A stretch of 64,000 nt of DNA, taken from contig BCJJ01000015.1 of assembly GCA_039545355.1 (NCBI GenBank), positions 124,001 to 188,000 on the forward strand, read 5' to 3'. The translations under genes and the position numbers were made by a program. Source of the DNA: Trichosporon coremiiforme (taxonomy: Eukaryota; Basidiomycota; Tremellomycetes; Trichosporonales; Trichosporonaceae). Below the pieces are notes generated by a model that saw only the letters and a program-made list of their open reading frames with translations, had not been told where the DNA came from and did not search any database. Position 1 is the first letter of the stretch, and each line of letters starts with the position of its first letter. Below are positions 1,623 to 57,567 of this stretch, in pieces.

Positions 1623-2950
1623 GATAGACGTCCCCGCCCTGCCGTCTCGGACGGTGACCCACCCAAAAACGAGCCCTAGCTTAGTATCATTCTTGTCTTT
1701 GGGATATGCACGACCACGTACGCATTTGTTAGCCACCACACCTATGCAGCTGCACTGGATACTTTACAGACTGGAAAACTGACGCAGAGTTGCACCGAAG
1801 GAACGCGCTCGAACAGAAAATGGTGGACGCCGCGGAAACCGCTAGTGCCAAGCCCGCCACAGACCCGCATCGGGATTTACGCAAAGTATGATGCAAGCCA
1901 CTGCTGAGCTCGGGGGCGACGTCGTCTCCGCACACACTATGCATGCACTCACCGCCCCATGCTCGTATGGGTGTTCACGCCTGGGATCGGCTGTGCATGC
2001 GATAGAGTACATTGAGAGGAGTACGAGTGACGAGGATAACGCAGCGAAGATCCCCGATAGGAGCGGCTCGGTAAAGTGCCCTCGGAAGCCGCCCCGGGTG
2101 TCGATGGAGGTCCGCCTCCGCCCCGTACGCCATACGGCAACAGCAGTTTAAGCGGCAACCTGCTACGGTGGGAAGAAGGCACGTTCGTCACGTTCACTTG
2201 GGGTGTTGTCGCGTGGAACGGCCAAACTGACTTCTAATTCATGACTTAGCCTTGGAACACGAAACGCGTCCCGAATCGTTGGGAGAGTGGGACTGAGGAG
2301 GGGGACGCGACGCTTGATGTCGCCGTAGGAATCTGCCAGAGGGCGGCTTAAATCTACGGTGACACCAAGCGCGTCCCAGACGGAGGGTACGAAATGAGAG
2401 GCGCTTGATGTCGCCGAAGATATTGGCCGCGATACTGCGGCCACAGTCAACACCGCACCTCCGACGAACGCCTGGCCTAGGACTTCGGACGCAGTGGGGT
2501 CTTGCGGGCTGTTTAACCTAAGCTCGGGGGTTTATGCGAGCGGCATCTCTCGTCTTGATACATGACTCTCATTCTCGCTTCCAGGCTTGGATACTGACCC
2601 CAGGCATGCCGCGGGCTGGCTCGCGCGTTTGGTCGATCCGACGTGGGTGTGCTCACTGACACCATAACTAACCTCAGCTTACCGGTCCTTGGTCCCCGAC
2701 TAGTGGCATCCAGACGATCATGTAGCTCATCTTTGCACCGCCCAGCGTGCTGAAAATGCTCAGGCATGCCAACAGCTACGTCAGATTAACTCTCTCGCAG
2801 ACCGTGGTCTGTCGAAGAAGTCATCACGCCAGCTCGTTGGCCACCTATCAGAATGCGAAGAGGAGCAGCGGAGAGATGTGGGCAGACTGACTCTCCTCTG
2901 CCTGGGCCAGACTCCAGGCTGCTGTGATCAGCAATCGGTTGCCAACTCAC
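1623..2950. other. intergenic, no gene recognised
   Basis: About 1.3 kb between the phosphate carrier and the clear part of the left intron-like array. Only short unconvincing frames are present. Isolated acceptor-like and donor-like words appear from about 2500 on the minus strand, so this may be the worn edge of the array. Confidence 0.4.
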
Positions 2951-4575
2951 GCAGCAACCCACGAGATTCTCTGACTGCCGTTGACAATGGGAACTGGCGC
3001 CATCGCCTGTGGTTAGCTTCACAGCAGTATGAGTTCTACTGAGTTTATTCTAGCATCACCCCCGACCCTTCAGTTGGCACTTGACCCGAGCGCTTGCCGC
3101 AATCCTGCTGCAGCGATTAGCATTTTACGAAGCAATCGAGAGTTGGAGACTGACATTGATCTGGGTCTGCCAAACCTGCAGTCAGCTCTGCTGAACTGGG
3201 TATAAGCTTGCCTTGTATCGCCGCGGATAAGCAGACTGGCAGGCCGTTTGAACTGTTGAGTCCTGCTACTCGCTCAGTGCGTGCGGAGCCAGCGCATATC
3301 GCGCTCTCTGTACTGCTCGGCTTGGCCTTCTTCGAGTGGCTGGAAGCAAGGGGCGATTGCACGGCGCCTGTGGTCAGCGAATAACAATCAGCATGCAGTT
3401 TGCTCACAGTTTGAGTGCTCCGTCGCTTTCAAGCTACGCACTCGTGGCTGCGATTAACTCGAGAACGATTCCGGTTTAGCTCACCGCTGTTCTCGCGGGT
3501 ATCCACAGTCTCGAGCTTGTTGCGGCTTTGTCTGCATTCAGCTCGGGCAGTCACAGCAAGAGCACACGTCAACAGGCATGCCGAAGGACTAGGCTCGTGT
3601 CTGGTATCAGATCAGATCGGCCCATATTCGAGGTATCTGAACTGTGTCTCTCCCGTGTGTGTTTTCCGGACCTGTCATCAGCTCAGAAAGGCCGCTTCAG
3701 TGAGCTTACACGTCCGCCTGACAGGCTTATGTCATGGGAGGCTGCTGTCAGCTGGATCTCGGCTCGGCTTCAGCGTTCGTTCGCAAGAGTTCAGCCCGGA
3801 GCTGGGATGGTTTGGCTGTTGACATACGCAGCTTTCCTCGTAGCCGCACCCGAAAGACGTATGGCTCCTGACTCCTGATTAACCTCCATTGTGCCGTGCC
3901 TACGATTAGCTAGCGGCAGTCGTGAAGCATACCATCTCGGCCTGCGCATCGCAAATGCTGCCTGTGGTCAGCTCAGGTGCCTCAACCCAAGCTCACGGTC
4001 GCCACACAAGGGGTTGTCGGACTGCACACCGAAGCGGAGACCAGGTGTCAGCTTGAATGCAGCAACACCTAGCTCACTGCCTTGCCGGTCCTTGAGTGTC
4101 TCGCAGGCAGGCTACGGTTAGCTGGTGGTGACATCCGGGCAGCTGACTTCTCGAAGCGTGCCGCGTCTGCGATCAGCCCTGGACGCCCGCGTAGCTCACT
4201 ACTAGGGGTCATGCTGGGGCGGACGGACTGTCATCAGCTTCGACAGGATAGCTGGTAGCATACCTTCCACTGTGGTGTTCGCCCCGCCATGTTGATGTGA
4301 ACACAGTGAACCTGGGACTGGCTCCATCCGAGGGACCATCTGGCTCACCCTTCACACCGCTGCGGACTGTCGTTAGCTGACGTCTCTGAGTCAGAGAGCT
4401 CACCTCCTCCGTCTGCGCTGTCACTGATACTGTTTCGTCAGCTCTGTGAGGTGCCCCTAAGCTTACGCTCCATGCTCCTTCCCGTTCCCTTTCCCTTGAC
4501 AATAGTGGTGCCCAAGGCGCAGCGAGAGGGTTCTGATATCAGCTTCAGAGAAGGACAAACTCGCTGTCTCACTCG
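2951..4575 (-). other. array of micro-intron-like units (left array)
   Basis: On the minus strand the sequence is a series of short segments each having a donor (GTGAGCT, GTAAGCT or GTATGC), a branch-like AGCTGAC/AGCTAAC/AGCTGAT, and an acceptor AG usually 6 nt after the branch A. Units I can delimit: 4533-4572, 4430-4466, 4367-4403, 4228-4263, 4167-4199, 4112-4147, 4042-4077, 3962-3996, 3900-3932, 3672-3709 and 3368-3407, all 33-40 nt long. Gaps between neighbours in the dense part are about 18-66 nt. Some units have one defective end: 4112-4147 has donor GTCAGC, 4042-4077 ends TG instead of AG. Splicing the upper units gives at best a frame of some 60-100 codons before a stop, so coding is not shown. 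It lies just 3' of the transcription factor gene on the same strand. It could be a spliced non-coding RNA, a decayed gene, or an intron-derived repeat. Confidence 0.6.
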
Positions 4576-4975
4576 GAGGCAGGCGCACGAGGTCGCCACT
4601 TCGAAACGCACACTTCTCCCTCCCTCCACTGATCAACGTCCTCCTTTCCTGTACTGCGGCGCTGGGTCAGCCGGGTCAATTCGTCAATTCCCTGCGGCGA
4701 GTGCGTACTGCGTGAGCGAGATGGGTGCGTACTACTCAAGACCAAGTTACATATGGTGTTTTCTACGTTTAGGCTACAGACCGGCGCCCGCCTTAGGGCG
4801 GCGCGGTGCTCAATCGATGTGAGGTGAGGTGAGGCTATGCTGATGAGATGAGGGATCTATTTCTATTGCTGTGCCGGATCAAAGGATCAAGATTAGAGGC
4901 TAGGAGCTAGGCATGGAGGTAAGAGGTTCAGGTTAGGCTGAGAGGTAGAATGTAGATGGGAAGTAGGGTAGCGGA

Positions 4976-7900
4976 CTATCGCTTAACCTTGGCGAGACGC
5001 CAGAGGAGCTGCGCGCAGTCACGGTCAATCGTGTGCTGGCTGCCGTTATTCTCGAGCCTCGAAGCAGCGACCACGACAAGGTCGAGCACACCGCGGTCGA
5101 GCTTGTTCACGCGGTTTGGGCTGTTGAAGATCGCATCGAGCATCTCGCGCGCGCCCTGTTCCGGGTTCTCGCTGGGGGGCGGGAGTTCCTCGTCCTCGCG
5201 CGCAATCGCCTGGCCGCAGCCCCAGACCACGAGCGTCGTGAGGAAGACCGCCCACGGTGTGTACAGGCCCCACTCGGCCTGGAGGGTTTCGCGGAGGAAA
5301 CGTGCCGACTGCCATAGGCACGTCCAGGCGTCGCCGGTCGCGACCCAGAGCTTCAGACGGCGGCGCGCGTCTGCGTACTGCTTTGGCCCGATCGCGGTGC
5401 CGCACACGGTACTGCTGCCGGCCGCGACTTGGAGCATGGGCAGGTCGGAGAGAATCTGGATGATGCTGATGGCGATCCAGTCGCGGATGTCGCGCGTCTC
5501 GTTGCATGGCGGCAGGCCGCTGATCGCCATCTCATACGAAGCGCGGAGCGCAACGACAGCCTTCAGGATGATGTTGCGCCAGTGCTTCGTGCCATCGCGG
5601 AACTTGATACCCATGCCTCCACGAGTACGCGAGTCCCATGCGATGGCGCTGAGACCGACAAGGATCAACATGACGCTGAACGAATTGTCGACGTCGACCT
5701 TGAACGCCTGCTGCCCGCCTTGGGTGTTGTCGACGGAAAGCGCCTGCAGGATCGCGGGCGAGTAGCCGCCGTCGCCGGGCTGGTGGTGCGCGCCCTGGTG
5801 GTGGTTGAACTCGCCGTGCGTAAGCGAGTAATGGTGCCGGGCGTGGCGGGCGTTCGGGTCCGCCTCGCGCGCGTGCAGCCACTCGGTCGCGCTCATCGCC
5901 TCCCACTGGCTGCGCGGCGCGGGGAGGTTGATGTTGTGCGCAAACATGCTAAGCTGGCGGGACGGGTGCTGCGACCAGAACGTGCCGATCTGCGTGTCAA
6001 GGTACAGGATGCAGTATGCTGCGCGGCGGCGCTCCTCGTCCTTGGCCCAGTTTTGCCACGCGTCGCTGCCGTGATGCTGGTGGTCGGACGGGGTCTGCGC
6101 GCCAATCGCGCCGATACCCTGCATGCGCGAGTGCGCCACGACGACTGGCCACATGCACTGCGCCGTGAACAGCGTCTCCGTGTCGCCGTACCAGACGTCG
6201 TAGATGTGGCACAGTGTGTACGCCTGCAGTGTTGCGAGCTCGACCTCGAGCCCGAACCGGTCCTCGACGAGCCGCGAACGCACTCGCCGCGTCAGGGCCC
6301 GGTCGTCCCGCCGCGGCACGTCCTTCCGGTGCACGGCGCCGGCGACGGCCATCATGACAAGCAGCTCGCTCGTTGCAAGCTCCGCATTGAAAGTACCGCG
6401 GTGAATGAACGGGAACGTTGGCGCCACCTTGGACCAGTACAGCTCGATACTCGCGCTCAGGTCCTGCACTGTCATGTTCAGGTCGGGGTACGACGCCAGC
6501 AACCGCTGCAGTAAAGGGACGTTAACGTCGTTCTGGAGCGCGCGCTCAGCGCTCTCCCGTGTCCGTGTCTGGCTCTGCTGCAGCAGCTGCTCCCACGGCT
6601 GCACGTCGTGGATCGTCCGCTCGTCCCAGAACACTGGCGCGAGGGCGTCGTTCAACAGCGCCTCCCACGGATGCGGTGGGCCGGCGCCGAAACCAAAGTC
6701 GTATCCCATCGGCTCAAAGCAGATGGGCGCGCTCGCTACCGTGCTCGGGTCAATGTCGATGAAATGGCCGGACGTGCTGAGGTCGTTCATGTTCGGGAGC
6801 CCGTTGACGGGCGTCACACTCGTGGACGCCGGGCCAGTCTGGCCATCGACGCCCAGGGCCGAGTTCGGGGCGCCAGTGTTCTGTCCCGCCATGCCGGACG
6901 AGACGTCGAGCAGATCGAGGACGGGGAACACATGGTTTGAGAAGTCGCCGGGTGAGTCCGTCTGGCTCGTCGACGCCGACGCCAGTGCGCGGTTCACTAG
7001 CGGTCCGTTGCTGACTGTTGACTGTCCGACGCTGTCTGGCGTGCCGTTCGCCTGGGTCTGCTGACCGTGCTGGGACTGCGGGCGGTGCGATGTCGGCGGT
7101 GGCTTACTCGAGCCCACTCGTGACAGGGGTTGAGACTGGGGTTGTGACTGAGGCTGAGACGCGGTTCCGTTCTGGCTCTTGCCCAGCTGGGCCGCGCCCG
7201 CGGTCGTCTGGTGTGCCCGCGACTTGAGCCGCTTCGGGTATCGCTCGTCGTCGCAGATGTTTCGCCGTTCATGGCGCTGGAGCAAGTCGAGGCGCTGGAA
7301 GCTCCGCCCACATGTCGAGCAGTGGTAGTTTGGTTGGGCGTCTGTAGGTCGTAACGGCGGTCGGAGAAACATAGTGTGCGAAGTGCAAAGCGGGGTCGTG
7401 ACCGCAATGTGGGGAAGACGCCATCGACGAGCGATCCGAGGGTGAGATGTGACCGGTGTGCAGGTTCATAGGACGCCCAGTACGCCATTGGTATTGTTGT
7501 CGGCAAAATTGTGCGCCACCACGGGCCAAGACGGTCAATGCAGGCAAGGGGATAGGCGAGGATCGCAGTGGGAAGGATGTTATTCGTGATCAGTCGGAGA
7601 GATAGAGATCGAATAGCGGCGGTCGAAAGATCGTTAGCGTCGGTTTCGTCGGTCGTGTGTGGGTGGTAGTGTGCGATGAGCAGAGGTGCAGGAACGGCGA
7701 TGGAAAAAAGTTCGAGGTCACTGTGTCAGCATTCCATTCCAGTTCATATTTTTCTTCTAGAAGAGGGATGGATATCCCAAGTATGATACGCACGGTTCGC
7801 TGCATGTCGAACGAGGTGATCCTGGATAAGGTCAGCCGCCACTGCATGCATTCGAAGGAAGAAAGACGCTCGAGACTCACTTTTCTGGAGAAGGCTTTGC

Positions 7901-19600: not shown

Positions 19601-22600
19601 GGTTGCATTCCTCCGTAGTCCGTCATAGGCTTGCTTGAAGGTTTTGTGAGACTTCTGTTTCGGGGCCGCGACTAACGCTGGGAACGCGAGGTGCTGGGAA
19701 GCAATGTGGAAGTCGCGCGCATGCTTGCCACACGAGACGAGCGGATATCCTACTCACCGTGCTGTCCGCAATGGCGGTATCTGTGGAGCGCGTCTGAATG
19801 GCCGGAGTGCCTTCGTTCTTCGAGTGCCTGCATGTTTGTTATGCATGTGGCCTGGGCCTGTGCTTTCATGCCGTGCTCTATCTACGCGAAAGTGAGTAAC
19901 TGCGTGCGACGCTGAACGGACTTGCGAGAGCGGGGGAGGGCGCTGGCCGAATCGCGTGGGCCCAGACACCATGCTGGACAAGCGCTCGGCTTACATCATG
20001 CGATAAGTCGGCGACTAGTTAGCGATTAGTCAGGGAGGACCTCAAAAAGTTAGATTTGGCACCGCTCACCGCCGTCAAACCTTCTAGTCCCACTTAATCA
20101 CAGCCAGGAAGCACCCCATTTCAGAGCTTCGCATGCTTCGTAATGCGCCTTGAATGCGTGTGTACTGCCTTGTTTACACCGATACGGTAAGGCGTATTGA
20201 GTCAGCGCCGTTCAGGCCGTGTTGTTTGTGGAGCGGTCATATTCTGCCGAGAACCCGCCGAATGAAGCAGCTGTCGCAGGCGTTAGCGTCAGCGGCGCGG
20301 GACGCGCAGCCCGTCGAGATCCCAGCCTAGATCATGGCTGACCCAGTTGGCGCCGGGGAAACGGGACCGCTGTCCTCAGATTGATGAGAAGCGCTGCGGA
20401 GCGTTGCGGAGGTAGCAGCGCTGTCTAAGGCATGGACATGTGGCCCGCCCTGCCTCGCAGCTGTCTCAGTGGTCCCGTTATAGGTCACTGTAGGGACCGG
20501 GAAACAGATCAAGGACGCTAAGGACGTCCAGATCACGGATTTTGACCGGGCTTTACGGTTCTGCCAGCTTTCGTTTCGAACGCCGATACAGTCTCACTTG
20601 CCTGCCCTCGTCGACGCCTGTCCCATGGCCTCGGGAGAGCGGCTGATCCGGCGTATTCGTGTCGGACTCGCAGTCGGCTGAGTCGGGCTTTCTGTCGCCC
20701 TTGCTGGGCGCGGGCGAAGCTGCCGCTTTTCCAGATAGTATGACCGCAGTGCGACCGCTGTGGCTTGAGGTGGAGATGCCGACGGACCTTCGCAGAGTCT
20801 TCAGGTGGCGGTCACGTGCAGCTGCGAGATGGCCGCGAGGACTGCTTGCGAGTTCCAGTACCAGACAGCGAGCACCGGAATAACATGTTCCGAGTTCGTA
20901 AACGTATAAGTTTGACGAACTGGGCTTGACACCGCCCAAAGTTAAGTGGTCAGGCGGAGAGGATGCCGAAAGAGCAGGAAAGCGGCTCTGGTGGCAGCCC
21001 CCAGAGGCTGGGCGGAGGTTGGGCTTCGGCCATGACAGAGCACTGAACTCGACGGTTACCGATAGACTTGGTACTCCGGCTGGTAGATAAGACAACAGGC
21101 TCACAGGCACGTGAACCTCTGCGGTCTGAACCTCGAGAAGCCGTAGCGCGAGGGACATGAGGTAACTCGGTCTGGAGGCGTGACTGGCTCGCTTGCTGGT
21201 TCAGCCATATGGTGAGGCAGCGTGGGTGCCATCTCGTCGATATGAAGCCCAAAGCGGCAGGCGGTTCACGACGAGGAACCAGGCAGAAGGCCAGTATCAT
21301 CTGTGACGGGTGGCGCGTTGTTTGCAGATGGCACGCGCAGAGCAAGCAGGCCAACCGAGCGGGCAGCGGAGTGCCTGCGGTTACCGTGGCGTCTCAAGCA
21401 CTGTAAACTTGCTTGTCTCGCTGAACTTCTCTTGCATTGCACGCGACGCAAGCATGAACACTGAAAGTCAGCTGCGAAGGAACCGGTGCTTCTCCGTCCA
21501 CCGTGGTTGCCATTGGCCGCTTCTCGTGACCATCTCCCCGCTGCCTCTCGACGTCCTACTCCGAGCGTTGATCGATCGCCTCCTTCCTTGCGCCACGAAG
21601 ACGCGAGAACGAGTACCCAGCGTCAGCTGGCGAAATGGCGAGCGCATGTTTCCGTCTTCCGCGGTTGTCGGTCGCCGCCCCTTGTGGCCGCATCTCTGGT
21701 CGTCTGCCTCCAGCCTCACACTCCCTTCCCTGATTAATTGCTTCCCTCAGCAGCCATAAGCCAGCTGCATCCCCCTACCGGCTCGCTACCCTTTCGGTGC
21801 GGGGCAGAATGCCTCGCCGTGCCGTTCCGCGGCCAGCATAGCCAGCAGAGTGTCGAAGAAAAATGGCACGGCAAGTTATAGCCGTCATACCGGTGTAAGG
21901 AGGCTTCGACGTGATGGCGACAGTTGCCACACCCCACCGACAATCCCGACAATGCCATCCGTTCTTAGACAGACAAGCTCGAGAGACATTGGGTGCTGAG
22001 ATGCCCAGGCGGGTTACTCTTGTTCTCGGTGCTGAGACGGAGTGTGGTGCGACTTTCGGGCAATGAGCGGCGAGGCGATGCCGTCCAGCGCCAACCTGGA
22101 CCATACAGCTCGTCGCAGCTCTGCGCGTTTCGCCTCAACTTGCGTATGCCATCCTCTTCCCTCCGCTCCACTTCCCTCCGCCTAGGAATAACCCCATACT
22201 CCACGCTCTAGGTACGTACGATCTTGAATTGTGCCGGCCCGAACGTTAAGGCGCAGACGGCTACGAGCGGAGGCGGGCCGCTCCGCCGAGTGGCGATCGC
22301 GTACGTTTCGAGTCTGCGGTGAGCCAAATATCTCTGCGTGTCGTAAAGAAAGGAAGACCTGCAGAGCACTGCGAGATATACGAGACTAGCAGAGATGCGG
22401 TAGAGATGGCAAGTAACGTAGCGAGCGTAACGAGCGTAACGACGGCGCATGGCGTGGGGCGTGACGACCTTCATGTGCGTTCATGATTCCGGATCACTGG
22501 TCCCATGGTCCCCGTCGGTCGGACGCCCCTGTGTTTCAGATGGCGTCGCGTGACCTCCCTCTCTCCCTCCTCCCCCTCCGTCTTGTCCGTCCTGTGTTGG

Positions 22601-23224
22601 TCCAGAACACTTACACACCACTGCTGTGCACAGTAGCACTGGTGGGTGCCCCTGATGGTTGCTCCTGATGGATGCTCCTGATGGGTGCCTTTACACTTGC
22701 GCACAGGGTTGATCTGGCTTTGGGCGATGGAACCTGCAACCTGCAGAGTCTTCATATCAGGAGGTCCGGTCCGTGCCGTCATGTAATGTCATGTCATGTC
22801 ATGTCATGTTCTCGCGCCTCATCAGATGAACATCTGCTGCGGACCGTGGCGCCATGATGGCGCTGGCGTGACAGCCTACTTGCAGCACTCGCTCCCTTCC
22901 CCTGCCCCGCTCCCCACGCCGATCCCTAGCTCGCCGTGCTCGCGAGCTGACATGGTCACCTAAAACCCAGTGATACTGCATGCTAACGTCTAAGACAGAA
23001 GAGAAAAAAGGTGTACAACCGGTGGTGGTGGCTAGGCTAGTGGGTACCTGTGGTGCGTGAACAGAACTGTGAATGTATAGGAGACAAGAAGGACGGGATG
23101 CTTGATTTGGCTGTTGCGTTTATTTGCGTTTGTTGCTTTGCGCGCTGCTTGCTGCATTGGGGCGCGTGGTCGCTGGCGAGGCAGAGACGAGGATGGGAGG
23201 ACCAGAGCGAGAGAGGAGAGACGC
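16644..23224. other. gene-poor region of about 6.6 kb
   Basis: The longest gap in the window. No open frame has a recognisable domain or convincing donor/branch/acceptor sets, unlike the surrounding DNA. The longest candidate frame (minus strand, 20553-21158, 201 codons) looks like random translation. There is no terminal repeat or transposase/reverse transcriptase motif. It contains an ATGTC microsatellite near 22.8 kb. It may hold long regulatory sequence, an unrecognised non-coding RNA, or a fully decayed element. Confidence 0.4.
22786..22809. repeat. ATGTC pentanucleotide repeat
   Basis: Nearly five perfect copies of ATGTC, preceded by imperfect copies from 22778. A simple sequence repeat with no assigned function. 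Confidence 0.85.
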
Positions 23225-28300: not shown

Positions 28301-29645
28301 ATGATCCTGCCCCCGATATTCCTCCTTGCCCTCGCCCTCGCCTGGGGAGTCGCGGCCGCCGAGGTCCTGTACAGCTTTGCAAACCTCAGCGCGACGTAGT
28401 GAGTGACGCTTTCGTTCTGACACCGCTCCAAACTGCGAGCGCTGCGATCAGCTCGGCCGTGCCTTGCCCGGCTCGCCTATAACCATAACCACTGGGCTTC
28501 GGAGAGATTTGGGTTTTGCGATTCATTCAACGAGGATGGGGTCCTCGCTTGGCCGGTGTGGGGCTATTGGGGCTGCTGGGGCTGCTGAGACTCCCCACGC
28601 CGCGACCATCGCAAACGTGCGCAGACCGGCCGGCGCCGCTGGCCGGTTGTTTCGGACCGAGAGGGGCGGCGTGGGTCCCTCCGCCGCGGACAGTCTGTCG
28701 GTACAGAGAGACGGGTGAGCGCCGACACAGTGTCCTTGCTACCTGCGGACGTCGCTGGTTGAGGGGGCTTACGCCGAGATGGTGCGATGCCTTCTCCGCC
28801 GTCTGCTTCGTCGGAGCAATGCGTCGACACGACCTGGTTGACGAGCATGCATCGCCGTCCGCCGCCATCCGCCGCCGTCCCCGCACCCCTCCGAGGCACA
28901 TGCACCAGTTCTTACCCCATTCCTCCAAGTCGAGAGCTGTTCTGACCTCAGCTACTACGACTACGAGCGGTGGACACACATCCAGTGTGCCAAATACAGC
29001 GGCGGCCCGCATTGGTCCGACGCAACGTCAGCCGCGCACACGGCGTGCGGGCCCAGCGCCGACGAACTGCGTTCCGACGCCATCGTCGCGTTGAACGTGA
29101 CGTGGATGAATCTGAGGGGGATAGGGTTCAGAGCCGAGCAGCTGTGTGGACGGGAGTGAGTATCAGTCTGGCGCATCTTTTCAGACCCCGTGGCGTCTCT
29201 GTCGGTTGTGGTGCCGGAGCCTCATTCCTCGGCACCGCCGAAAGCCCCGCCGAAACCTCAGCCTTCCAGCCACACAGTGAAGGCCGTAGTGGGCGTTGAG
29301 GATGGGGGCCAGGCGGAGGCGGCCCAGCTGAGAGAAGAGAAGAGCGCGCTGACAGCCAGAGTCCAGCTGTACTCCGATGGCAAGCGCGTGCCGACGAAAC
29401 AAACACTGTTTCTCTGGGACGCGTGCCAGGCGTGTGCTTCGCAGCGGCGCGTCGATCTCTCCGTCGACGCGTACACGCAGGTCACCGGGGATACGGACTG
29501 CGGGAGGGGCCACGTTGGGCCGTTCGAGGTTAGGGTCATGGACAATTTCGTCAGACGCTCTGGCTCGGGACGCACGGTAAGCACGGTAAGCACGCCGGTG
29601 CTGGGGTTGCTGCTCGCCGCGGGGACGCTGGCGATGGCCGTGTAA
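28301..29645 (+). CDS. putative secreted GPI-anchored protein
   Basis: Not assignable to a known family. Exon 1 (28301-28398) encodes a clear signal peptide (LLALALAWGVAAA). Exon 2 (28952-29155) follows a GTCTGACCTCAG-like acceptor and encodes a Cys-containing stretch with an N-glycosylation site (NVTW). The last exon is open to a stop at 29643-29645 and ends in a hydrophobic tail (TPVLGLLLAAGTLAMAV) typical of a GPI signal. The phase of exon 2 fits an acceptor at 29269, giving a last exon 29270-29645; this junction lacks a good branch site and is uncertain. The first intron would be 553 nt and might hide another exon. Four cysteines in the last exon (including CQAC) suggest a disulfide-bonded domain. 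Confidence 0.45.
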
Positions 29646-33852: not shown

Positions 33853-33880
33853 GGGGGGGGGGGGGGGGGGGGGGGGGGGG

Positions 33881-33939
<59 letters not shown>
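33853..33939 (+). repeat. 87-nt poly-G tract with one interruption
   Basis: 28 G, one C at 33881, then 58 G. It lies about 185 bp upstream of the kinase start codon, whose coding strand therefore carries poly-C. Such a tract can form G-quadruplexes; it is also a classic place for assembly or sequencing error in its exact length. Confidence 0.9.
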
Positions 33940-51025: not shown

Positions 51026-53106
51026 ATGTCGTATGACCCCTCCGCTCAGCAACGGTACGCCCCGGTCGCAGGCTACGGCCAGCCGGGGCGGGATCAGCCC
51101 GGGACCTATGAGGAGAAGGCCGGCCTGACGGGCGCAGGCGGCGAGTCCTACCGTGAGTCCTTGCTCTTGTAATCGTCTTGGGTCAGGTTGATTACCCTCG
51201 ATTACCCTCTTTTCGTTACTCTATTCCGAAAGTGTGGGACTCCAAGCACACTCAAGTCCCGAAGCTTGCACCGCCCACAGTAGTGCTTGGCCCTCTGGAC
51301 CCTCCGCCGCACGCCTCCGCCGTCTTGGCTGTTCGCCACAAGACGCCGCTGCGGACACGCCGTGCTCTTGGCTATCTGAGGATGAAAGGAGCATGCCATG
51401 CGCCCAGCAGTCCCATGTGTCCTGACAGTCAGACATTCGGGCGCTCGCTGGGCCGGTATGCTGTGCTGGAGGAGGGAGGTCTATGCTCATGGCGCTGCTA
51501 CGTCCTTAGGATTCCTGCGGGGTACCCAGGGCATCGACTTGAGACCCAATCTGATCCTTTCGCGAGCGAGCTTCGTCGATGTCTGACCACACAGCTATGA
51601 CCAACGTTTACAGCGGCAGCGGCAGCAACACACCGCGCGACCCCTTTCACGACCCGTCCCAGCAATCCCTCCTCTCAACACCCACTCGCCAATACTCGAA
51701 CTCAAACATGAGCGGAGCAGCCGGCGTCGGAGCAGCCGCAGGAATGGGAGCAGGAGCGGGTGCGATGGCCTACGGTGCCGGAGGAGACCACGGATTCAGC
51801 AGCGCCGGCTCGCAGCCGTCATACAACGCTGCCGCGATGGCGCACGACAACGTGCCGTCTGACCAGCTCTGGGCGATGGACAACGGAGACCACAGCTACC
51901 GCGGATACGACGAGTCTGGACAGGTCGCCGAGAAGGCGAGCAGCGGCAAGAAGAAGTGGATCATCATCGGATCGATCCTGCTTCTCGCGGCCATCATCGT
52001 TGGTGTCGTCGTCGGCGTCGTCGTGTCGAAGCAAAACAGCAGCAGCAGCAACAGTAGCTCGAGCAAGAGCAGCAGCAAGGACAGCGCATCGCCCGACTTT
52101 GAGAAGGACCCGAAGCTCCACCAGGTCTTCTGGGGCATGGCTTACGCCCCTGCCGACGGACGGCCGCCCTCGTGTGCGAACACGCAGGAGGCGGTGAACA
52201 AGGATATTCAAATCCTGTCCCAGCTCACGACCCGTCTCCGCCTGTACGGTGCCAACTGCGGTGTCACACAGCAGATTCTGAAGGCGATCAAGGATCTCAA
52301 GGTCGACATGAAGATCTACCCCGCGATCTGTGAGCTACAATTCTGCCGTGGCGTGAAGCTGACATCCAGACCTTGACTCGTCAGAGACGAACCAGCAGTA
52401 CTACGACTGGCAGGTCGGCAACCTCTCCGAAGCGATCCAGGAGTACGGAGCGGACAACATTGAGGGCATCGCCGTCGGCAACGAGTACCTGCTGATTATG
52501 ATGACCGAGGCTGGCGAGTCGCAGCCCTCTGGAGCGACGTACACCAAGTACGTCAACCAGCTGTCGAGCTACGTGCAGGACTTCAAGAAGACGCTGAAGG
52601 GCTGGAACGTGGGCAAGGACATTCCCGTCGGCACCGGTGATGCCGGCTCCATGATGTCGGTCGAGCTCGGCAACGTGATCGACTACTTCATGGCCAACGT
52701 GCACCCGTGGTTCGGTCTGAACACGCCCGTCGAGATGGCGGCGGGATGGACGTGGGACTACTTCCAGAACAACGACGTCGCAGTCGCGGAGAAGAGCAGC
52801 CCCGTGCCCGAAACGTTCATCGCCGAGACCGGTTGGCCCACCCAGTCAATGGACAAGGCGCACGAGACCAACATGGAGGAGGGCATGGCGGCCTCGGCCA
52901 CAAAGGGCAACTACGCGAGCGAGGAGAACCTCCAAACGTTCCTCGACACGTACGTGTGCCAGGCGAACAAGAACGGCACAAAGTACTTTTACTTTGAGCC
53001 CTTTGACGAGCCCTGGAAGGAGCAGTACGGCGGCGTCGAGCCATACTGGGGCCTCTTCGACCACGACCGTAACCTGAAGAACATTCAGATCCCTACGTGC
53101 GAGTAG
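51026..53106 (+). CDS. GH17 beta-1,3-glucanase, type II membrane protein
   Basis: Exons 51026-51152, 51595-52329 and 52370-53106 join in phase to 532 residues. Residues 1-163 are a cytosolic Gly/Ala/Ser-rich tail ending in KKK; one membrane helix follows (about 164-187, WIIIGSILLLAAIIVGVV), then a Ser/Asn linker and a family 17 glycoside hydrolase domain from about 205. The catalytic pair is visible: proton donor E326 in IAVGNEY and nucleophile E440 in FIAETGWPT. Relatives remodel beta-glucan at the cell surface. Introns are 442 and 40 nt; the short one has AAGCTGACATCCAG at its 3' end. The upstream open frame that runs into exon 1 is leader. It directly precedes the right intron-like array on the same strand. 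Confidence 0.92.
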
Positions 53107-53543
53107 GCCGCTCTTCTTCCCTCTCTCTCACCCAAACCCCTTTCTCATTCTCATTCTCATGCTCAATCTCTCATCAAACACCTCCTCAACCGCAACCCAT
53201 GGACAATACAGCCTTTTCTTTCTTCCATTCATGGACCTGTTTTCACGCTCACGATATCATCGTCCGTATATCCTACCTCTTCGGCGCGACGACTGGCCCG
53301 AGCTCTTTGTACTTTGTTCTTTTATGTGATGGACGGTTTGGCCGCGTGAATGCTGCATACTGCTTCGTATTCTCTGGCATGGTCAGTCGTGTTCAAACGG
53401 TGGGGGTCGAGGGCGTGGTGTGAGAGGGCTGTGGGAAAGAGCGGAGTCAGGCGCGCGTAGAGAGGGACGATCAAACGGAGGTAGGTGGGAGGTAGGAACG
53501 CAACTCGTCTCGGCATTCTCAAATTCCCACCTTGCCACCATCC
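53107..53543. other. 3' flank of the GH17 gene
   Basis: 437 bp with no gene. Contains a short CATTCT-type microsatellite near 53145-53165. Confidence 0.4.
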
Positions 53544-53624
53544 AGGTGAGTGAGAGGTGAGAGTCAGGGGTGAGAGTCAGAGGTGAGAGTCAGAGGTGAG
53601 AGTCAGGTGAGAGTCAGAGGTGAG
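53544..53624 (+). repeat. tandem GGTGAGAGTCA repeat at the head of the right array
   Basis: Five or six copies of a unit of 11-14 bp whose core GGTGAGAGTCAG joins a donor-like GTGAG directly to an acceptor-like CAG. It sits at the upstream edge of the intron-like array and may be its youngest or most condensed part. Confidence 0.75.
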
Positions 53625-55624
53625 TTCCCATGCCGTTTTCCGAGCTGACGGCGGTAGTCCTGCCTCGGAATCCCGTGCGATCAGGGGTGAGCTGTGGCAA
53701 GGTGGCAAGGGACATGGCCCAGCTGACAGCTCAGAGGTAAGCTTGGAAGATCCGCTGGAGCTGACTTCAATTCGTCCACGAGAAGAGGGGGTGAGCTAAG
53801 AGTCATACAAACTGAGGCTGACTTCAGTACTGATTCGTGCGGACGCTCTCTCGTTCGGGAGGGCACGACGTGGGTTGAGAGGGGTGTGGGGAGGGGTGAG
53901 GGGATGGGTGAGGGAAGGGGAGGAGGAATGTGAGCTCACTGGCATTGCTGTAGCTGACTGCAGTGTCGGATGGAAGAGTGAGCTAGCGACCAGAGACGCC
54001 GAGACGGGCTCGGTGAGCTGGTTCGTTGTGGGATAGCTAACCCCAGTCTGGTAGGTCAAGTCAGGTCGTGGTGGAGCTGACAGCAGATCCTGGGTGGGAG
54101 CTGAGTACTGGACTTTTTGAGCTGGTATCAGCCACGACGAATGAAAGAGGGAGCGGTAAGCGATGGCGGAGAGCGGAGCTGACCGCGGGCTCGGTGTCGT
54201 GAGCTGGCATGAGCTGAACGGCGTTGTCGTAGCTGATATCAGCGGGGGCTGGTGGGCTGGTGGGTAAGCTCCCCATTGGAGAAGGGTGAGCTGATACCAG
54301 TGCCGACTCCGGTGAGCTGTACGTAGACGTGTGGAACTGACCGCAGTGTGACGATGTAAGCTGCGTCGTTCGCTCGAGCTAACCCCCTGCATGTACTGCA
54401 TGTACGCGGGTGAGCTTCCAGGGGGGTTTCATGAGCTAATGTCAGACTCAGAGGAGACTGCCAAGGCTGGACGTGAGCTGATATCGTCGGGTCTGAGCTG
54501 ACTGCAGCGCGTAACGACGTGAGCTGCGTAATTCTCACACGGGCTAGCCCCAGTCGGACTCCATTCGATGCCAGTATCTCGAAGGTGAGCTGCTTTCCGT
54601 GGAAGAACCTGAACTCATGTCAGGTCTGTCCACCGTGTCAGCTAGGACGAAGACGTCCATCATCGAGGAACTACACTGTGAGCTAAGAGCTTGACCTTGG
54701 AGCTGATGTCAGGCTCGGCTCATGGCGCTGGCAAAGACGTGAGCTGGAGCTTCCAGGCCTTCCAGGCCTGAGCTGACGGCAGACCCACCCGAGCGGGGGT
54801 AAGCTCTCGGAGAGGTGTCGTTAGCTGAACAGAGTCTCCGTGCCTGCGTCTGAGGTGAGCTCATGCATTCTCGCAACGCTGGTTACGAGTGAGCGCGCTT
54901 GAAGGGACAAGCTGACCGCAGCTTGTCGCCCAAACACAGCTGGACGTCCCAGGAGAACGTGAGCTGCGCTGAGCGTTCATCCCAGCTAATGGCAGTGCCG
55001 CACGGTATATCGGCGAGAAGTGGGACGGTGAGCTACGGTTGCCACGCTGCGAGCTAATGTCAGTCCGGCATGTATGATGCTATTCAACCGGGGGGGAGCT
55101 GATACCAGTCCGACCGCTCTGCAGCTCCAATCTGACGTGGGGGCATCCCGCGAATAAGGTATGTGCTGGTAAGCAGCTGCAGCCGACACCGTCGGAAGGA
55201 GTCTGGCAGAAGTTACACAGGCCTTCGACACAGAGCTGACTCCAGCGAATGGTGATATCGTGTTGCACCAGCTGAGCGCGAGCTCGCCTTACTTCGCTAG
55301 AAAGCTGACGACAGTCTCAACCCAGGTTCAAGGTCAGCTGTGCTGGATTGGTAGGGCTGATCGTGCAGTCTGTCTGTACTACGCATCTCCCACTCTCGCC
55401 AGACCGGAGAAGGCTCAAGGAGAGATGTTGAGCTTTTATCAGTCCGGCCAACTCTGATCCCAGGTGTGTGAGCAGGAGCATGTCTGTGCTGATGAAGTGG
55501 GAAGGTGATGGTAAGCTGGCAGCTGCCGTTCGTTAGCTAACTGCAGTGGGGCTTACAGTGAGTCAAGTAGACAACAGCCTGAGGCAAACAGTAAGCTGCC
55601 AGGCGATGGCAGAGCTGGCCGCAG
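53620..55624 (+). other. array of about 25 micro-intron-like units (right array)
   Basis: Repeated donor GTGAGCT/GTAAGCT, branch AGCTGAC/AGCTAAC/AGCTGAT and acceptor NNCAG, with the acceptor usually 6 nt after the branch A. Units delimited: 53620-53657, 53687-53734, 53791-53827, 53930-53963, 54013-54046, 54051-54086, 54094-54131, 54199-54242, 54264-54300, 54312-54346, 54410-54445, 54473-54507, 54519-54553, 54585-54623, 54678-54712, 54739-54782, 54799-54834, 54889-54921, 54959-54995, 55028-55063, 55072-55108, 55511-55546, 55591-55624, plus longer ones (55159-55245, 55252-55314). Most are 33-48 nt, the size and shape of true short introns here (for example 48456-48491 and 52330-52369). Sequence between conserved words is not similar from unit to unit, so this is not a simple tandem duplication. 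Confidence 0.75.
53970..55431 (+). CDS. candidate micro-exon gene inside the right array
   Basis: If the array is spliced, one frame stays open for 172 codons over 20 exons of 4-117 nt. Exons: 53970-53977, 54047-54050, 54087-54093, 54132-54155, 54243-54263, 54301-54311, 54347-54355, 54446-54472, 54508-54518, 54554-54584, 54624-54677, 54713-54738, 54783-54798, 54835-54854, 54922-54958, 54996-55027, 55064-55071, 55109-55158, 55246-55251, 55315-55431. The start is ATG followed by GAAGATCTG; the stop is TGA at 55429. Four junctions skip a weak unit to the next acceptor and a few use weak donors (GTAGGT, GTGGGA, GTATGA, GTGATA), so freedom of choice inflates openness. The product is basic, with a CPPC pair, and resembles no family I know. 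It may instead be a spliced non-coding RNA. Confidence 0.35.
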
Positions 55625-55914
55625 GCCCAATGATCGCAGGTTCGTGGCCCGATCAGGACGAGGGGGGGCAAGGCATACTCGAAGGGCAGGTGTGTGATGA
55701 GGCAATTCAAGCTCGGTCCCGGTCCGAATGTTATCGTCCCCATCGTCCCTCTCTACCGAGCGTCTCTAGCCAAGGGCCCCATTACGTCACGCAGCCTGAT
55801 CATGTGTTCCCAGTCGCAGGCTAGTTGCACCGCACCGCAAGCACCACCTCGTGGGAACGAAGAATACTCGGCACTAGCGAGGGAGGGTAGGCATGCATCG
55901 CACTGTCACTCACG

Positions 55915-57567
55915 ATGCTTGCCTTCTTTCTGATAGCGTTGGCGGTGGTGCACGCCGCGCAGATCCCGTTCTTCGACATCGGACATGACAGGAAACCCGG
56001 CGCGCCCGAGGAGATCTACATCAAGCAGTGTGAGTCTTCCCTCTTTCTTCAGCTTCAGAGCTGTGTGTTCCGGCCGAGAATCTAGCTGACCCCAGTCTCC
56101 GCCCTTAGCGGGGATCCGGGCATCGCTCTCCAGACGCGCTTGGAGGCGCTGTACGCGAACTCGACCGTGCTCACGACGCAGACGCCATTCGACCTGCTCG
56201 GGTTCGCGGAGGAATCGGGCCTCGAGTTGCGACAGAGAAAGGACCTGGCCTGGCTCTCACTGCGCGGGTACAAGGCCGGAAGGAGAGATCTCCGGTCGCC
56301 TGGGGGTGCTGCTCATCTAACGCGCATGTCCCAGGAGCCCAAAGGGGGTGGGATCCAGATCGACGTCAAGCTGGAAGATGAAGAGGAAGGGGACGTGGAC
56401 AGGGGGAACAAGGACGCGGCGATCTTCGACTCGGTGCAAATGGCGGCGTGGGAACTGCACTGGGAGGGAACCGACATGCTGGCCATTGTCGCGCACTTCG
56501 CTCAAGGTTTCTACGACGTCACGCAGTGGCACCTGATCTCTCCCGAGTCCTCTGCTTCCGACTCGCTCTTCGCCGTCGTCGCGAGAGCCACCTCCGCACA
56601 TCCAGACGTAGTCTGGGTCTTTGACCGGGGATTCTGGCAGCCCTCGCCGGATCTGTGGCGCGACGTGCGCAAGGCGTCGTGGGACGACGTCATCCTCGAC
56701 GACGACTTCAAGAACAACCTCCGTCACGATTATGGCGGATTCCTCAAGGGTAGAAAGACGTACAAGGAACTCGGCGTGCCGTGGAAGCGAGGGCTCATCT
56801 TCCTCGGCCCACCGGGCAATGGGAAGACATCAGCGCTCAAGGCCATCATGAATGAGGCTGGCGTGCCCAGTTTGTACGTCCGGACCGTGAAGTGTGAGTA
56901 GTGTCCCGGAAGTGGAGAGTTGAGCTGAGCTGACGCCAGCGTCCTGGGGCACGTCGCAGGAGAACCTCGCGACAATATTCAAGGGCGCGCGGGACATGGC
57001 GCCGTGCCTCCTCATCTTCGAGGATCTGGACAGCATGATCGACGACGATAACCGGTCATACTTCCTGAACGAGGTCGATGGGATGGACGTCAACGACGGG
57101 TTGCTCATGATCGCGACGACGAACCATTTCGACCGCTTGGATCCAGGGTTGTCTAACCGACCCTCGCGCTTCGATCGGAAGTAGTGAGTCCGAGTGTCCT
57201 CTTCGCCCTCTTGCCTTCCTCGGTATTCACTTCAGCCGGAGTAGGTGGGGAAGCGTGTCGAGATCATTTTGTAGCTGACGTTAGCAACTTCCCCATCCCT
57301 CGCCGCACGCAGCGCCGCGACTACGCCGTCTACTGGCAGAAGAAGCTGAAGGGTGTCGACGGCATTGCGTTCCCGAACGCGCTGCTCGACGAGTTTGCAG
57401 CCAAGACGTCCAGGTTCTCATTCGCGTACATGAAGGAAGCGTTTGTCTCCACGCTGCTCGCGATTGCCGGCGACGACAAGAACAAGGGCGACAAGCACTT
57501 CCCCCAGCGCCTCATGCGCGAGGTGAAGTACCTGCGCAAAGAGATCGACGACGGCGATGACGAGTAG
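55915..57567 (+). CDS. AAA ATPase with N-terminal signal sequence
   Basis: Four exons (55915-56029, 56096-56893, 56940-57183, 57285-57567) join in phase to 479 residues. The first 15 residues are a signal peptide or anchor (LAFFLIALAVVHAA). The AAA module is at about 265-400: Walker A GPPGNGKT 276-283, Walker B LLIFED 328-333, sensor 1 IATTNH, and the arginine finger region NRPSRFDRKY. The C-terminal helical lid follows (ALLDEFAAKTSRFSFAYMKEAF). Similar single-AAA proteins are widespread in fungi with unknown substrates; the arrangement is BCS1-like, but no BCS1-specific domain is recognised. Three introns have AGCTGAC exactly 6 nt before the acceptor (the last ends TTAG). It follows the right array on the same strand with about 290 bp between. 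Confidence 0.85.

Follow-up and report, generated by a model that had tools for sequence, protein, structure and literature searches.

Introner elements comprise many introns which have common ends and also a common interior sequence. In Cryptococcus neoformans, 1,434 introns are reported for 765 spliced miscRNAs, corresponding to approximately two introns each (PMC3990503), and in fission yeast a cryptic intron in a cis-acting long noncoding RNA (lncRNA) is described to recruit splicing factors as well as Pir2/ARS2, which bring silencing effectors (PMC7229227). A review of fungal lncRNAs mentions lncRNAs that are intronless or contain fewer introns than coding genes (PMC12566771).

The intron arrays described here for Trichosporon coremiiforme would resemble the C. 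neoformans miscRNAs as noncoding, spliced or polyadenylated RNAs of a related yeast featuring small introns. However, array loci contain 8–46 units each, compared to approximately two introns per miscRNA, and most of the miscRNAs are reported as antisense transcripts of genes or of further miscRNAs (PMC3990503), whereas no gene was found opposite either of the two arrays of the analyzed window. With the Pir2/ARS2-bound lncRNAs the arrays would share splice signals in gene-adjacent noncoding RNA, and these lncRNAs served as a model for the role proposed below; the fission yeast genes studied possess one cryptic intron each (PMC7229227), whereas tens of near-perfect introns occur per locus here. 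Saccharomyces protointrons likewise represent intron-like sequences of fast turnover, some of them in noncoding RNA, but occupy more than 150 individual sites, the signals of which are less constrained (PMC6726248), whereas the arrays are dense and carry strong signals. Furthermore, 3′-UTR introns of Cryptococcus (PMC5851062, PMC3990503) are spliced noncoding sequences located 3′ of genes and subject to fast turnover; such arrays were not noticed in passages on these introns from both publications. No description of comparable intron arrays was recognized among the limited number of papers listed by literature searches, a weak negative result.

The window, i.e., the whole stretch of DNA analyzed, comprises 64,000 nucleotides of contig BCJJ01000015.1 (positions 124,001 to 188,000). 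In addition to the features discussed below, it contains an 87-base run consisting nearly exclusively of G (33853–33939, 97% matches). Units were searched for by means of a 17-position model composed of the donor GTRAGCT, the branch AGCTRAY, usually two further bases and YAG, at the usual spacing. Within 53600–55660, 25 units with at most 2 mismatches and 27 with at most 2.5 were detected on the + strand, compared to 1 and 2 units, respectively, on the − strand, and 40 shuffles of this interval, for which two-base blocks were permuted, contained on average 0.12 and 0.10 units (maximum 1). Slightly wider spacing at up to two mismatches resulted in 26 intron-shaped units on the + strand at 53620–55624; the shuffle controls refer to the near-identical 25-unit model and not to this 26-unit run. 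Perfect donor and branch words were present in 12 units on the + strand and in none on the − strand of the array, whereas such units numbered 0.00 on average (maximum 1) in 500 dinucleotide shuffles and 0.13 (maximum 3) in 52 further stretches of 2 kb, each taken on one strand, from elsewhere in the window. The density of these words is far lower in both controls than in the array, and the initial annotation, which had described about 25 units with donor, branch and acceptor words on one strand, is confirmed by these counts.

Twelve of the 26 units are intact, namely 53687–53734 (48 nt), 53930–53963 and 54013–54046 (34 nt each), 54199–54242 (44 nt), 54264–54300 (37 nt), 54410–54445 (36 nt), 54473–54507 and 54678–54712 (35 nt each), 54739–54782 (44 nt), 54959–54995 (37 nt), 55028–55063 and 55511–55546 (36 nt each). 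Seven units deviate from the consensus at one position (53737–53770, 53791–53827, 54312–54346, 54356–54389, which is also off in spacing, 54889–54921, 55278–55314 and the last unit, 55591–55624), and seven at two positions (53620–53654, 54096–54131, 54156–54188, 54519–54553, 54585–54623, 54799–54834 and 55072–55108), all on the + strand. Since 14 of the 26 units are imperfect, the array appears to be partly decayed. The 25 exons between the units range from 2 to 196 nt (median 27 nt); the exon size of 4–54 nt given initially applies to 21 of them, and the true range is wider. Introns account for 47% of the array span, so that the supposed transcript would be about half intron and not mostly intron as initially assumed. 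A 13-bp tandem repeat of six copies, GAGTCAGAGGTGA, is located at the 5′ border of the array (53548–53624, + strand). It contains GTGAG and CAG, i.e., minimal donor and acceptor words, and could be a seed of array birth.

Concerning internal duplication, the best pair of intron interiors scored 10, compared to 9–10 in three shuffled sets, which is in line with the earlier statement that the sequence between the signals is unrelated and that tandem duplication does not explain the array. Exon pairs scored above shuffled ones (26 vs. 17), an excess that may be due to decayed splice words remaining in the exons. In comparison to introner elements, the common ends are alike, but interiors are shared in introners and unrelated in the arrays. 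Searches against Rfam for snoRNA hosts or other known RNAs gave no matches in the window, L018, L019 and L020. Moreover, no promoter was identified at the array, and a scan for promoters and terminators of the bacterial type, the models of which are ill-suited to fungi, gave results near chance.

Similar arrays are present elsewhere in the genome assembly (42.0 Mb, 134 contigs), so that the window array is not a one-off. In total, eight arrays comprising 190 units were read, and the main strand was richer in each of them. Besides the 26 units of the + strand array, 16 units were assigned to a second window array on the − strand (2922–4466, the extent given by the strict pattern; the 16 units, four of them intact, were obtained by a looser model over a slightly wider span). 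Further arrays are C7:574k (20 units), C7:602k (36), C7:654k (27), C1:2037k (L020; 46), C1:983k (L044; 8) and the decayed C25:382k (L041; 11). Other-strand units numbered 0–2 in seven arrays and 6 in C7:654k, representing the smallest ratio (27 to 6). The exons of the eight arrays feature a median of 34 nt; 132 of 182 are at most 54 nt and 35 at most 15 nt long.

A micro-exon pattern, defined as two near-ideal introns around an exon of 5–35 nt, was found at 193 places genome-wide and at none for the reversed control. Among the 100 places listed (contigs C1–C10), 64 belong to 13 one-strand clusters of at least three and 16 to eight pairs, i.e., 80 lie in one-strand clusters or pairs, and 20 are single; in two of the 13 clusters (C1:2263k and C2:508k), two places use one common donor. 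Neighbor pairs within 2 kb, again among the 100 places listed, were on the same strand in 59 cases and on opposite strands in none. All four of the 13 clusters for which the sequence was read are arrays without coding; the other nine could include genes. Strong introns that cluster do not by themselves identify an array: of two such clusters picked out for inspection, the looser one at C1:755k turned out to be a helicase gene rich in introns, and the one at C1:983k is an array. Two − strand micro-exon clusters (C9:1282542–1283383 and C10:1224293–1228298) are each located approximately 7–8 kb from an equal-scoring match to an AAA protein and are perhaps homeologous arrays. Based on these results, the window array is a member of a multi-locus class of intron arrays in this genome.

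For comparison of splice signals, 95 introns of six arrays were set against 123 predicted introns from outside the arrays, which are mostly real introns, though this is not certain; the same base pattern was used to collect both sets. The GTRAGCT donor occurs in 80% of the array introns and 26% of the others, and the AGCTRAY branch in 86% and 37%, respectively. Length quartiles are 35–37.5 nt for array introns and 36–45 nt for the others, and the branch-to-end distance is 5 nt in 73 of 95 compared to 42 of 123 introns. In donor, branch and acceptor, the array units correspond to the U2-type spliceosomal introns of coding genes in this genome. The initial notion that the words match those of introns in neighboring genes is supported insofar, but array introns are nearer to the consensus than other introns; this contrast is partly circular and includes some selection bias, since the arrays were noticed through these very words.

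Across the genome, the base at donor position 6 covaries with the one preceding CTRAY (odds ratio 40, 95% interval 33–49). The combination GTGAGCT..AGCTGAC was counted 2126 times vs. 37 for the reversed control (gap 10–40), whereas, at a gap of 14–40, the counts were 1390 vs. 4 for GTGAGTT..AACTGAC, 588 vs. 13 for GTGAGTT..AGCTGAC and 126 vs. 4 for GTGAGCT..AACTGAC. The resulting rank, C-G and U-A above U-G above C-A, equals that of donor-branch base pairing, as if the two sites of the approximately 36-nt introns paired. Both word classes were found in one gene and on contig C1, which argues against a contrast between subgenomes as the source of the covariation. A 4-bp donor-branch stem is not established, because the genome-wide test of position 7 failed (GTGAGCG..CGCTGAC 28 vs. 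28 reversed, GTGAGCG..AGCTGAC 78 vs. 28). In a local sample outside arrays, position 7 covaries (77 vs. 62 shuffled), a signal that might stem from a single class of words, and inside the arrays neither position covaries clearly (90 vs. 90.2 and 89 vs. 87.3).

Coding capacity was evaluated by a gene model combining strict intron words with local codon usage and chaining of exons. This model rebuilt genes of the window encoding 568 amino acids (six introns, score 123) and 429 amino acids (four introns, score 178) as well as the AAA ATPase gene of 397 codons (two introns, score 73). For the window array, the best coding chain scored 8.2, which exceeds 5.1, the top of 20 whole-sequence shuffles, but lies below the 9.5 reached by shuffled exons; the opposite strand scored 2.5. 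Four further arrays scored 1.5–7.4, each under its own shuffled-exon maximum. The − strand cluster of the window reached 14.6, above shuffles, due to an intronless frame corresponding to the tail end of the transcription-factor gene; without this tail the values were 6.0 vs. 4.8 shuffled. When introns were relaxed, scores of 11.4 (69 aa) vs. 2.8 in five shuffles and of 13.5 (94 aa) vs. 7.2 in five shuffles were obtained for the window array and L020, respectively, and a control gene scored 113. No chain with a score of 15 or more covers the array in L044. The coding tests covered the window array, five other arrays and L044. Exon lengths modulo three are evenly distributed (27/27/25 of 79), and ATG occurs 9–17 times per kb in array exons and 9–16 times in array introns, i.e., it is not depleted in exons; therefore, the exons do not look like a translated leader. 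As far as tested, the arrays are without convincing protein coding. A 201-aa frame on the − strand (53796–54401) was rejected as a candidate, having a codon log-odds of −46 compared to +110 for a real exon of similar length, the latter being one of the four exons that trained the codon scores.

The 3′ exon of a glycosyl hydrolase family 17 (GH17) gene (52498–53106, + strand) precedes the window array, its stop being located 514 nt before the first unit. In all seven arrays for which the upstream gene was identified, this gene is on the same strand and stops 353–584 nt before the first unit (for the GH17 gene on C7, the stop position is the end of the similarity match). The upstream genes encode GH17 glucanases (two), fungal transcription factors (two), a CAP protein, a Whi5-like protein and one protein without Pfam match. 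As the seven loci represent five independent upstream genes, the evidence for such an orientation rule is weak, with a chance probability of 1 in 32. Downstream neighbors vary. The window array on the + strand is followed by the AAA ATPase gene on the same strand (55915–57184, a model of 397 codons including the stop, with uncertain 3′ end), which starts 290 nt past the last unit. The array at 2922–4466, which lies 3′ of a fungal transcription-factor gene (4976–7465, − strand), faces a convergent mitochondrial carrier gene, and C7:574k faces a convergent gene or tRNAs. Downstream of L020, a same-strand frame without Pfam match or coding score is followed by an opposite-strand gene. Further downstream neighbors encode tRNAs and, as judged by eye, an AMP-ligase-like protein, and lie on the opposite strand.

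The best match of the AAA ATPase originates from Trichosporon asahii (76% identity), and contig C7 carries another copy of each of the two genes flanking the window array (93% and 77% identity). These findings suggest a hybrid of the order Trichosporonales, and T. coremiiforme, T. ovoides and Cutaneotrichosporon mucoides are reported as hybrids (PMC6730849). By means of blastn against 200 kb of C7, window positions 4737–53348 aligned directly to C7:605009–654363 and both flanks aligned in inverted orientation, which corresponds to one inversion of approximately 49 kb between the window and the homeologous C7 region. Both breakpoint intervals (2558–4736 and 53349–55699), which are without blastn alignment to C7, contain the window arrays, and each array at an inversion junction has one main strand. 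The arrays need not have caused the breaks, because long gene-free stretches tolerate breakpoints. Two further segments, 20900–22777 (1.9 kb) and 28533–28945, are also unaligned to C7 and lack the strict intron pattern.

Near the AAA ATPase gene, window and C7 arrays align with 60% identity over approximately 400 columns (score 118 vs. 64 in block shuffles). Within this alignment, both ends of the intact unit 55511–55546 coincide with those of an intact C7 array intron, and the donor of the last unit (55591–55624) with that of a second intact C7 intron, the register of its 3′ end being ambiguous. Both donors are identical and the interiors have diverged. Conservation of intron position would concern one intron, or two. 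No clear alignment was obtained for the remaining array parts; the halves facing the glucanase and the transcription-factor genes scored barely above block shuffles (67 vs. 61 and 56 vs. 49). An alignment of L020 with L041 at 56% takes in part of the arrays, but the introns are not clearly in register. At L041 on C25, the homeologous site of C1:2037k, a short decayed array with six donor and seven branch-acceptor words was found, whereas L042 on C15, the homeologous site of C7:574k, contains no array words on the matching strand and no unit on either. Considering the register at C7 and the decay or absence at C25 and C15, one array seems to be older than the split of the homeologs and others were apparently gained or lost since. 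Moreover, since homeologous sites hold a decayed array or none, the array loci are dispensable over this divergence.

Based on the evidence above, a class of spliced lncRNAs is the most likely interpretation. The arrays are probably noncoding, targeted by the spliceosome and retained because they undergo splicing, and would arise and decay rapidly. We infer transcription, splicing and selection from the DNA sequence, spliceosomal use being deduced from the order of the signals, their strand and the shared words. In the proposed mechanism, a Pol II transcript would start or continue a few hundred nucleotides downstream of the stop of the preceding gene on the same strand. Approximately half of this RNA would be removed as a chain of approximately 36-nt introns, leaving exons of a few to approximately 200 nt. 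The mature RNA would encode no protein and would not be conserved, the recurrent part being the splice signals as a set. Any selection, be it past or present, would concern the engagement of the RNA with the spliceosome rather than a product. With a product that lacks both coding capacity and conservation, any function would be expected in transcription and splicing. The most plausible role is a local one, in which splicing factors recruited again and again to the nascent RNA could set the fate of the transcript or the activity of neighbors; such local regulation is, on its own, a doubtful guess drawn from the fission yeast analogy. Exons of 0–8 nt could not all be spliced simultaneously, which counts against this explanation. 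The initial interpretation of a transcript made of many tiny introns and exons, not produced by tandem duplication, agrees with the ordered strand-specific units, the unrelated interiors and the lack of convincing coding, while the imperfection of half of the units, the intron share and the existence of further arrays required its revision.

Arrays could also represent debris of proto-introns, for which read-through noncoding RNA would meet an eager spliceosome, and introns would be gained by point mutation unopposed and decay neutrally without any function. This is unlikely, even though absence or decay at homeologous sites, graded decay within arrays, unrelated interiors and the fact that most of an array cannot be aligned fit well, as do Saccharomyces protointrons, which are described as nonconserved, infrequently spliced and partly located in noncoding RNA (PMC6726248). 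However, protointron sites are less constrained and array introns nearer to the consensus (the selection bias applies), and neutral gain fails to explain tens of units in few places; it accounts for the turnover but not for the strong signals. Overlapping with the preferred reading, the array could be a long, alternative, intron-rich 3′ UTR exposing the upstream mRNA to nonsense-mediated decay, which is considered quite unlikely. The position of seven of seven arrays 3′ of a same-strand gene at similar distance agrees with such an extension, and so do the 1,025 3′-UTR introns of Cryptococcus (PMC3990503), 90% of such introns being reported as lost or shifted between two varieties (PMC5851062). 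Nevertheless, the shared orientation carries little weight with five independent upstream genes, the extension would be approximately 1.5–4 kb long, and the strong homeolog match past the GH17 stop ends after 242 nt, which suggests an ordinary 3′ end, a 61% match running on to 53476.

A function of the array as 5′ leader of the AAA ATPase gene is very unlikely. The distance to the AAA start (290 nt) has a counterpart of approximately 280 nt on C7 (alignment offset), and the conserved introns are those nearest to this gene, but the other arrays C7:574k and 2922–4466 face a convergent gene or tRNAs, and ATG is not depleted in exons. An origin from mobile introners or from tandem duplication, or a role as DNA sites that have nothing to do with splicing, is highly improbable: high copy number, the AGCT palindrome and the exon-pair scores could be cited in favor of these readings, whereas interiors no more alike than shuffled ones and the donor-branch-acceptor order kept on one strand oppose them. 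Finally, a protein-coding gene of micro-exons was rejected, its probability being practically negligible. Real genes of this genome also have approximately 36-nt introns, the C1:755k cluster is a helicase gene, and the relaxed scores as well as the strict score of the window array beat five relaxed and 20 whole-sequence shuffles, respectively; against this, the strict score of 8.2 stays below shuffled exons (9.5) and far from true genes (73–178; relaxed control 113), and exon lengths show no preference modulo three.

Extending the preferred reading of noncoding loci kept for being spliced, it is tentatively proposed that these are splicing-only loci, which would be selected solely for engaging the spliceosome repeatedly on each transcript and would make no product at the level of protein or RNA sequence. 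Such loci may act as a sink for splicing factors, as a switch for RNAi or chromatin, or in the control of transcription past gene ends. If spliced, the arrays would separate splicing from its product, providing tens of near-perfect introns without coding or RNA-sequence constraint, and would allow tests of the effect that splicing itself has on a transcript and its neighbors. They would likewise be informative on intron birth in the absence of coding constraint and on how the spliceosome handles exons of less than 15 nt between 36-nt introns. The presence of two homeologous sets in one genome offers built-in comparisons for this purpose, including decayed or absent arrays at matching sites.
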